Source: Mariprofundus sp. | GTDB lineage: Bacteria > Pseudomonadota > Zetaproteobacteria > Mariprofundales > Mariprofundaceae | Length of the DNA: 35,120 nt | Assembly (NCBI GenBank): GCA_030950555.1 | Contig: JAUZRH010000236.1 | Location: forward strand, 1-35,120 | Direction: 5' to 3' | Shown: one piece after another, positions 5,288 to 35,120 of the stretch | How the letters are laid out: each line of letters opens with the position of its first letter | Numbering within the stretch: position 1 is the first letter of the stretch | Program-made: the position numbers and the translations under genes | Notes under the pieces: model-generated | The model's database searches: none | Told to the model about the DNA's origin: nothing | Seen by the model: only the letters and a program-made list of their open reading frames with translations

Positions 5288-5397
5288 GAGAGCGTTTATG
5301 TGATATGGATTCCCGATTCAACCTTCGGGAAGCAAGTAGCGGGAACGCCGCTCAAGTTTCTCGTGAAGAACTTGTCCCCGCGAAGGCGTGGAATGAC
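5288..5397 (-). repeat. Dispersed GC-rich intergenic repeat, copy A (reverse orientation)
   Basis: Read on the minus strand this segment matches the copies at 29045-29165 and 34781-34858: a CACGCCTTCGCGGGG block, a GTTCTTCACG block, GGCGTTCCCGCTACTTGC, then ATCGGGAATCCATATCA and AAACGCTCT. It holds several short inverted repeats (TTCCCG/CGGGAA). It lies only in intergenic sequence and has no believable coding content. Confidence 0.85.
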
Positions 5398-5485
5398 GTA
5401 CAGTCCATGCTTGCTATATGCGCGTACGGCTGCCTATCTTAAAGGTGACCTTGGGGGTACGACTTTAGTCGCGCAGCAATACTAA

Positions 5486-5645
5486 GGGCCTCGGAAATAA
5501 TAAAACATCCAAAAGGTGCGCAGGATAGTTGTTGGATTCAAGGCGCAGAAACAGGTGCATAGCTGGGCCTATGTAACTGTTTCTGCAACGTAGAAGGCGA
5601 GCTTATAGACCAGTAGAATTGGATGTTTTATTATTTCCGCGGCCC
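5486..5645. mobile_element. MITE-like 160-bp element with terminal inverted repeats, complete copy
   Basis: The ends are 26-bp inverted repeats (5486-5511 and 5620-5645) that differ at one position and begin GGGCC. TAA flanks both ends (5483-5485, 5646-5648) and could be a 3-bp target duplication. Inside, a hairpin at 5545-5586 pairs GCAGAAACAG with CTGTTTCTGC, then TGCATAG with CTATGTA (one G-T pair) around a CTGGGC loop. A second copy begins at 35020 and shares a 30-bp identical internal block (5517-5546 here, 35051-35080 there). There is no ORF, so any movement would need a transposase in trans. The family is not one I can name. Confidence 0.8.
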
Positions 5646-5813
5646 TAACCCCCCCCCCCTCAAAAAAAGCATTGAGATCAGGTGTGGCGTCTTAAAAGGG
5701 GCGTCGTAGAGATAGTCCAATAACTAAAATATTAGTGCTTTACTGTGTGTCTTAGTGTCTTTGTGGTGAGGAAGTTGTTCTATGTGCTTGAATCTTTTGC
5801 AGGCGTGGCTTTT
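5646..5813. other. Non-coding tail of the 5.2-5.8 kb repeat island
   Basis: Directly after the TAA that flanks the MITE-like element there is an uninterrupted run of 11 C (5649-5659). The rest is AT-rich and contains the third copy of CTTTGTGGTGA (5759-5769). The flagellar cluster on the minus strand ends at 5814, and I see no clear intrinsic terminator for it here. Confidence 0.5.
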
Positions 5814-28840: not shown

Positions 28841-28865
28841 GAGAGTGATTCAAGTATGGGTTATC

Positions 28866-29165
28866 AGTGATTCCCGAAGCTTAAATCGGGAATTCACTTC
28901 AGATCAAACGCTCTGTTTGATTCGGGCATAGATTCATTAGCAAGTATAAAGAGTGAGCCAGTCCCAGACACCCCCGCCCGTCATTCCCGAGGCTTAAATC
29001 GGGAATCCACATCAACATGAATGCTCTGCTTGATACCAAAGGCAATGGATTCCCGCCCCACGCCTTCGCGGGGGGGGCAGGTTCTTCACGGGAAGCAAGG
29101 GGCGGCGTTCCCGCTACTTGCTTCCCGAGGGTTAAATCGGGAATCCATATCAAAGTAAACGCTAT
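28866..29165 (+). repeat. Second island of GC-rich intergenic repeats (copies B)
   Basis: The interval from 28841 to 29249 has no gene. It holds hairpins ATTCCCGA...TCGGGAAT at 28870-28893 and 28983-29006 (8-bp perfect stems with 8-nt loops). A longer mosaic at about 29045-29165 has the blocks CACGCCTTCGCGGGG, GTTCTTCACGGGAAGC, GGCGTTCCCGCTACTTGC and AAATCGGGAATCCATATCA. The first hairpin is followed by a second small one (ATCAAAC, 5-nt loop, GTTTGAT). The same blocks, in the same order, recur at 5288-5397 (inverted) and 34716-34858. Apparent ORFs across it repeat one translated motif and are artefacts. Confidence 0.85.
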
Positions 29166-34528: not shown

Positions 34529-34715
34529 AGCCAAGAGTATAGCTTATCTTGGCAATAATTGAACAGACAAGATATGTGGACTGCTGTCTAGGATTTTAAG
34601 TTGCAGGGTAGCTTGATTGTTAGATGACTCCAAGCGTGAGCTGTTGCATAGGGAGAAGGACTTTAGCCCCGCATAAACCCTCGCCACGGTAATGCCATTC
34701 AAAGACCCCCGCCCG

Positions 34716-34968
34716 TCATTCTCGAGGGTTAAATCGGGAATCCACATCAAAATAAACGCTCTGCCTAACATCAAAGCCATGGATTCCCGCCCCACGCCTT
34801 CGCGGGGGCAGGTTCTTCACGGGAAGCTTGAGCGGTGTTCCCGCTATGCGATAGGGTTCATTAGACGGCCCGAATCAATCAGACTCGGTTTTGGTTGTTT
34901 GGCTAACCCTATCGCGTAGCGGGAACGCCGCCACTTGCTTCCCGTGAAGATGCGGGGCGGGAATCCGG
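34716..34968. repeat. Third repeat island with a long inverted arrangement (copy C)
   Basis: The first part (34716-34858) repeats the blocks seen at 28983-29100: a degenerate ATTCTCGA...TCGGGAAT hairpin, CACATCA, AAACGCTCTGCC, ATGGATTCCCGCCCCACG, CTTCGCGGGGGCAGG and TTCACGGGAAGC. The second part (about 34904-34968) is a shorter inverted copy of the end of the unit. The facing arms include a 22-bp inverted repeat with one mismatch (34837-34858 and 34905-34926). The 46-nt loop between them contains a further small hairpin (CCGAATC 34870-34876 with GACTCGG 34882-34888, one mismatch). Confidence 0.85.
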
Positions 34969-35019
34969 CCTAATTCCGACTTTATGCAACAGGTTTAGCA
35001 GTCTTGGACAGCATCCTAA

Positions 35020-35120
35020 GGGCCGCGGAAAAAATAAAGTATCCAGGTTATGCGCAGGATAGTTGTTGGATTCAAGGCGCCAAATCAAGCGCATAGCAGG
35101 GCTATGTAACTGATTTGGCA
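35020..35120. mobile_element. MITE-like element, second copy, cut by the window end
   Basis: It begins with TAA then GGGCCGCGGAAA, matching the terminal repeat of the element at 5486-5645, and shares an identical 30-bp internal block (35051-35080). Its hairpin pairs GCCAAATCA (35079-35087) with TGATTTGGC (35111-35119) and an inner GCATAG with CTATGT. The right half is outside the window. Confidence 0.8.

Follow-up and report, generated by a model that had tools for sequence, protein, structure and literature searches.

A 160-bp MITE of Mariprofundus carries a conserved structured core, probably acting as RNA, that recurs on several unrelated transposon ends

The repeat that occurs at 5486 and again at 35020 in the window, by which we mean the whole 35,120-nucleotide stretch analysed, is best read as a non-autonomous MITE of about 160 bp carrying a conserved, rod-shaped structured module that acts as RNA and is separable from the ends of the element; we place the probability of this reading at roughly 0.7. 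It draws on the ends of the element, its target-site duplication, its copy number, the matching ends of insertion sequences (IS), covariation, strand asymmetry and the occurrence of one core on different ends, all of which were observed. As we delimit it, the module comprises a middle stem, the asymmetric CAAGGC/AACG loop, an inner stem and the ATAGC..GCTAT tip.

The window is an entire contig (C153) of a draft genome of 2.58 Mb in 316 contigs, estimated as 87.8% complete, and holds one complete and one truncated copy. The plus orientation of the element is the strand bearing CAAGGC...AACG, and is set by these loop motifs rather than by folding. The features are as follows.

5483..5485, unstranded: left target-site duplication (TAA) of copy 1, from the sequence and flank statistics over 65 full copies
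5486..5645, +: MITE copy 1, complete, subfamily A, 160 bp, matched by model R1 at 171 bits
5486..5510, +: terminal inverted repeat of the left end, GGGCCTCGGAAATAATAAAACATCC, forming the outer stem; the same ends occur on ISAzo13-type IS of relatives
5520..5527, +: 5' side, conserved internal-loop motif GCAGGATA (alignments A1 and A4)
5528..5539, +: middle stem, 5' arm (fold and covariation)
5539..5544, +: CAAGGC, 5' side of a conserved asymmetric internal loop, with almost no variation in A4 and A5
5545..5554, +: inner stem, 5' arm GCAGAAACAG, the hairpin of the initial annotation (sequence, covariation)
5557..5574, +: apical hairpin GCATAGC...CCTATGT (fold, alignment A4)
5577..5586, +: inner stem, 3' arm CTGTTTCTGC (sequence, covariation)
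5587..5590, +: AACG, 3' side of a conserved asymmetric internal loop, with almost no variation in A4 and A5
5593..5604, +: middle stem, 3' arm GAAGGCGAGCTT (fold and covariation)
5608..5613, +: 3' side, conserved internal-loop motif GACCAG (alignments A1 and A4)
5621..5645, +: right terminal inverted repeat
5646..5648, unstranded: right target-site duplication (TAA) of copy 1 (sequence, flank statistics)
35017..35019, unstranded: TAA bordering copy 2 on its left (sequence)
35020..35120, +: MITE copy 2, a subfamily C member truncated where the contig ends, with inner stem CCAAATCA...TGATTTGG

Complete copies of subfamily C exist elsewhere in the genome (e.g., L138:10091-10249). The initial annotation had described the two copies as identical over a 30-bp block (5517-5546 and 35051-35080) and as diverging in hairpin arms that both keep paired, and this description holds: copy 1 pairs GCAGAAACAG with CTGTTTCTGC, copy 2 pairs GCCAAATCA (35079-35087) with TGATTTGGC, and the three double changes (A:T to C:G, G:C to A:T, A:T to T:A) and single lost pair (A.C) are present. 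The terminal inverted repeats (TIRs) were recovered as well, at 5485-5512 and 5619-5646 with 96% complementarity, and their length here is taken as 25 bp; likewise, the TAA flanks claimed for the element are found on both sides of copy 1, whereas the right end of copy 2 falls beyond the contig end at 35120. Copy 1 folds at -74.3 kcal/mol, compared with -41.3 +/- 3.6 kcal/mol in shuffles (z = -9). A second repeat family (TTCCCGAGGGTTAAATCGGGAATCCA... and ...CCACGCCTTCGCGGGGGCAGGTTCTTCACGGGAAGC) also occurs in the window, at 5301-5391, 28852-29152 and 34700-34966; two of its copies directly adjoin the two MITE copies, and its inverted arms measure 51-55 bp with 91-96% complementarity.

With its length of 160 bp, the absence of coding sequence, 25-bp TIRs and a target-site duplication, the element has the make-up of a MITE. 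The duplicated target is TWA: in 38 of 65 full copies the two 3-bp flanks agree exactly, and 37 of these 38 are TAA/TAA or TTA/TTA, against 18 mixed TAA/TTA pairs (p = 0.007). The TIR is shared with two congeners (G022 and G008) and a sister-genus genome (G023), the congeners bearing related elements being public Mariprofundus MAGs. In the sister genus, TIR-type ends flanked by TTA, in line with TWA, bound a decayed transposase that matches PF07592 (DDE_Tnp_ISAZ013) at 1.2e-36 and the NCBIfam ISAzo13 model NF033519 at 3.7e-34, the latter under the full-length cut-off because the reading frame is broken. The congener G022 holds remnants that have the same left end and bear fragments matching that transposase (27 aa at 67%, E = 5e-6) or its DNA (92 bp at 77%, E = 2e-14); in this genome the left end of the IS is identical to an end of a MITE over 26 bp. 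The search for a transposase with matching ends that had been proposed earlier thus yielded a decayed ISAzo13-type gene in the sister genus and remnants in a congener, but none in the host draft genome. Specifically, PF07592 had no match in that 87.8% complete assembly, nor was an ISAzo13 transposase present in the further element carriers tested; an IS5-family transposase (PF01609), considered as a host-genome partner, was rejected for want of any match in the host draft genome. The ISAzo13 transposase of the host may have been lost or left unassembled, and the autonomous element is commonly missing from the genome that carries a MITE and is not required there, although its absence leaves a gap in the case. 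From the shared ends, an ISAzo13-family transposase probably cuts and pastes the MITE in trans, recognizing the 25-bp ends and duplicating TWA. Elsewhere in the family, a 91-bp element with ISAzo13-type ends and no core, a plain MITE, lies 2 bp from a core-bearing copy (G063, L245:1663-1753).

The host genome holds many copies of the element. The TIR has 430 exact matches genome-wide (220 + 210), with none for controls or the reversed pattern, and 662 when up to three mismatches are allowed, from which we infer roughly 300 element copies. Further copies were what the initial annotation had named as decisive for its proposal, and the core pattern alone recurs 231-237 times in the host genome. 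Across about 944 kb of the genome, paired TIRs are spaced by 156-196 bp save for one 354-bp copy, and no pair at this stringency encloses a gene-sized stretch; a looser scan mostly links the ends of adjacent elements. Since the core pattern is missing from 60 relatives, 22 of them congeners, the burst in the host lineage appears recent. None of 89 scored copies lies inside an ORF of over 200 aa, and the 26 copies with both neighbours available show no orientation bias with respect to genes (7 co-directional, 4 antisense, 7 convergent and 8 divergent). No clean nested insertion with an empty site was found among the copies. Many host contigs (e.g., C55, C93, C135 and C228) start or stop within a copy, about 140 bp of which is present, and the repeat is therefore a probable cause of much of the fragmentation seen in the assembly.

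Within the host genome the inner stem tells a mixed story. A set of 109 distinct copies, drawn from three species but almost entirely from the host genome, contains 34 inner-stem arm types, and cognate arms form 214 of 306 pairs, compared with 172 for permuted arms (p = 5e-5). The short-loop subfamilies A, C, D, E and F keep 7-9 of 9 inner-stem pairs. In the commonest subfamily, the long-loop subfamily B (about 53 of the 109 copies), the arms CCAAATCAA and ACTCTGTGG form only 3-5 of 9; its spread with a mismatched inner stem indicates that stem pairing is dispensable for mobility and amplification. Members of subfamily B (e.g., L157:526-712 and L135:213-399) have a 50-nt loop in place of the short tip, with several side hairpins, and their two strands fold about equally (+ -76.1, - -74.9 kcal/mol), as would be expected had the RNA constraint been lost. 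Mosaics are frequent (e.g., L196, L110, L199 and L170); subfamily B and other mismatched copies resemble mosaics whose breakpoints fall in the loop or the 30-bp block, which would also account for the identity of subfamilies A and C across that block. Compensated private arm changes were absent within subfamilies A and C, where such changes break or wobble pairs, and together with the mismatches of subfamily B this implies that resident copies are not visibly maintained. Likewise, the middle stem in host-genome copies alone is no better paired than with permuted partners (p = 0.10), its support coming from the cross-genus alignment. Mostly uncompensated stem differences, which the initial annotation had held would speak against its proposal, are thus found in subfamily B and in the private changes of A and C, but between lineages the pairs are compensated. 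Judged from these alignments, the stem constraint is visible between lineages and not among resident copies.

When 13 short forms taken from three species are aligned (A1), they fold into a rod of 58 pairs, 12 of them doubly changed and concentrated in the inner stem, with a covariation not attained in any of 500 shuffles. A covariance model of the element (R1) was searched in 74 genomes of the family and had matches in 25, which span seven genera. The matched elements are nearly always about 160 bp long, and in them CAAGGC, ATAGC...GCTAT and AACG stand at fixed places while stem sequences change and the ends fall into different classes. In 29 divergent elements (alignment A4), 92% of cells are paired compared with 71% in shuffles, 20 of 25 pairs are doubly changed, and the covariation score is 0.549 against 0.185 in shuffles (0/500), slid controls reaching at most 0.144. 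A core-only covariance model (R2), searched at E <= 1e-4, then matched 74 of 399 Pseudomonadota genomes, where well under one genome is expected by chance on nominal and rough E-values, and the matches include 16 families outside the order of the window. Thirteen R2 matches, mostly non-zetaproteobacterial, were aligned without the model and independently of its training (A5); folded de novo they give the same structure, with 22 of 28 pairs doubly changed and a covariation score of 0.585 against 0.192 in shuffles (0/500). The CAAGGC/AACG loops and the tip are the best-conserved letters across the phylum. The claim that the stem is kept paired while its sequence varies is accordingly upheld over 42 divergent elements from many genera, beyond shuffles, and the compensation first seen between two copies is the visible edge of a larger, cross-genus pattern. 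Two species of one genus carry the element beside the same flank, ttagtattcgcgacgttgacgggc (L256 in G083 and L259 in G030), so some insertions are old or shared. In three GC-rich IMG/VR loci classed as viral (L297, L299 and L300), the core stands beside a left sequence AGAACCTGTT..., for which a matching right end was not found.

One core is thus seen on several end classes, of which examples are listed here with their target sites where these were recorded.

End class GGGCYNCGGAAA: TWA
End class GGAATGNNA.TTAAATAA: TWA
End class GGAAGCKCTGAAYAAAGC: CTAG and variants
End class GGGCACCTCGAAAAACC
End class AGTAGSTGWCCATAAGTC: TA

Sequence comparison provides IS partners for two of these classes, ISAzo13-type with TWA and IS5 with CTAG. 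For the latter, a 160-bp core-bearing MITE in G094 (L269) abuts an IS5-family IS with which it shares both ends and CTAG, and G067 (L270) contains a complete IS of the CTAG class flanked by CTAG; the two IS match NF033581 at E 1e-98 and 2e-99, respectively. A third partner was sought for AGGAG.CTATTCAAAATAACTTG ends, and none was seen in two loci. The R2 model never saw the end repeats, which lie outside the core; long inverted repeats nevertheless stand just outside it in 9 of 13 out-of-training matches, new end types included. Conversely, the core is present in 10 of 13 loci retrieved by one new end sequence alone. Because the core is common to MITEs with several unrelated ends, core and ends are separable, and the two appear to evolve separately. 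The suggestion of a mobile cassette bearing a structured RNA or single-stranded DNA element is substantiated by the TIRs, target-site duplication, copy number, partner IS and covariation.

Whether the fold works as RNA or as DNA bears directly on our reading. The motif strand folds better than its complement in 32 of 32 elements, the difference ranging from 1.6 to 30 kcal/mol under RNA parameters, and in 14 of 16 new matches, with the caveats that the model scores one strand and that the elements share ancestry. Mismatches in A4 comprise 93 G.U and 16 A.C, against shuffled expectations of 89 and 31 (p = 4e-4); in host-genome arm types without subfamily B the same asymmetry is not significant (p = 0.11). 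Tolerance of G.U, avoidance of A.C and better folding of the motif strand favour RNA, and the folded core is probably a working RNA. It is unlikely that the core instead functions as DNA, folded into a hairpin when single-stranded or extruded, and serves for instance in recognition during transposition or replication. The ends are certainly those of a DNA transposon, insertions lack orientation bias, a long palindrome can extrude in replication, and a G.T mismatch is milder than A.C in DNA too; yet the same core occurs with ISAzo13-type and IS5-family ends and so is not the site of one transposase, and the strand asymmetry is large, as the energy differences above attest.

Structure need not have been selected at all if arm-to-arm template switching (quasi-palindrome correction) and recombination among subfamilies produced the paired changes. 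Such a neutral origin would sit well with the abundance of mosaics, the successful spread of the broken subfamily B and the uncompensated private changes, but arm-to-arm copying would erase asymmetric loops, whereas CAAGGC/AACG and the tip are what is best conserved, and such an origin should leave Watson-Crick pairs alone, with the strands equivalent, whereas the data show both G.U pairs and a strand bias. We hold it somewhat less probable still than a DNA hairpin. That the window merely contains an ordinary MITE of which two copies differ by chance is very improbable: three double changes between two copies are indeed few, but the same pattern recurs in many subfamilies and species, and in three alignments none of 500 shuffles attains the observed covariation. 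An RNA module carried by a MITE remains our preferred reading.

Rfam, searched at permissive thresholds with elements from the host genome, other Zetaproteobacteria and outside, gave no match at gathering score, and the sub-threshold matches were weak and implausible. Terminal repeats are common to the MITE, the ISAzo13-family IS of the sister genus and the remnants in a congener; unlike those IS, the MITE lacks a transposase gene and its interior has no detectable IS-derived sequence. The second core-bearing class resembles IS5-family MITEs in having IS5 ends and CTAG duplications and in adjoining such an IS (L269), but its interior is the structured core common to ISAzo13-type elements and not decayed IS5 sequence. 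ERIC (IRU) is similar as a palindromic mobile repeat of about 127 bp with a long rod fold, and an E. coli ERIC copy that we tested also folds better on one strand and shows, within an internal loop, an AAGGCG motif of similar appearance. Membership of ERIC was rejected, as R2 with filters off gave no match to the ERIC copy in two orthologous loci (L332/L333). In the portion of the literature available to us, ERIC is smaller than the MITE and has TA at its termini (PMC2229807), and Correia (nemis) MITE transcripts of Neisseria fold into stem-loops for which RNase III cleavage has been proposed (PMC2229807; PMC2649163). A Correia query had no match in the phage collection. According to the accessible part of a further source, MITEAba12 and other reviewed MITEs are non-autonomous, with TIRs, a target-site duplication and a parent IS acting in trans, as here, but are described with one parent IS each, unlike a core common to different ends (PMC10969869). 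The sections available of the literature searched, in which few subscription journals are covered, contain no description of one core on different ends (PMC10969869; PMC2229807; PMC6382973; PMC3110155; PMC2267715).

We propose that the CAAGGC strand of the module is active as RNA, most likely once transcribed within a neighbouring transcript. The fixed loops of the module would contact or guide an RNA-binding protein or RNase that is widely conserved, with RNase III as the first candidate by analogy with nemis, and this putative contact could make insertions tolerable or useful. New ends would be gained when the core combines with those of a resident insertion sequence. Whether such structured RNA modules are mobile across the phylum independently of any transposase, with ISAzo13, IS5 and other ends serving as a replaceable vehicle, is a broader proposition on which we are evenly divided.

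Bacterial MITEs are usually described as decayed IS with a leftover interior. In the present elements it is the interior that is conserved, while the ends can be exchanged, and this extends over many families of Pseudomonadota; what had been genomic clutter becomes a testable functional element that the R2 model finds in many genomes. The finding raises the question of which protein or process in bacteria recognizes the CAAGGC/AACG loop, and it may provide a frame for asking whether ERIC and Correia repeats belong together with this element.
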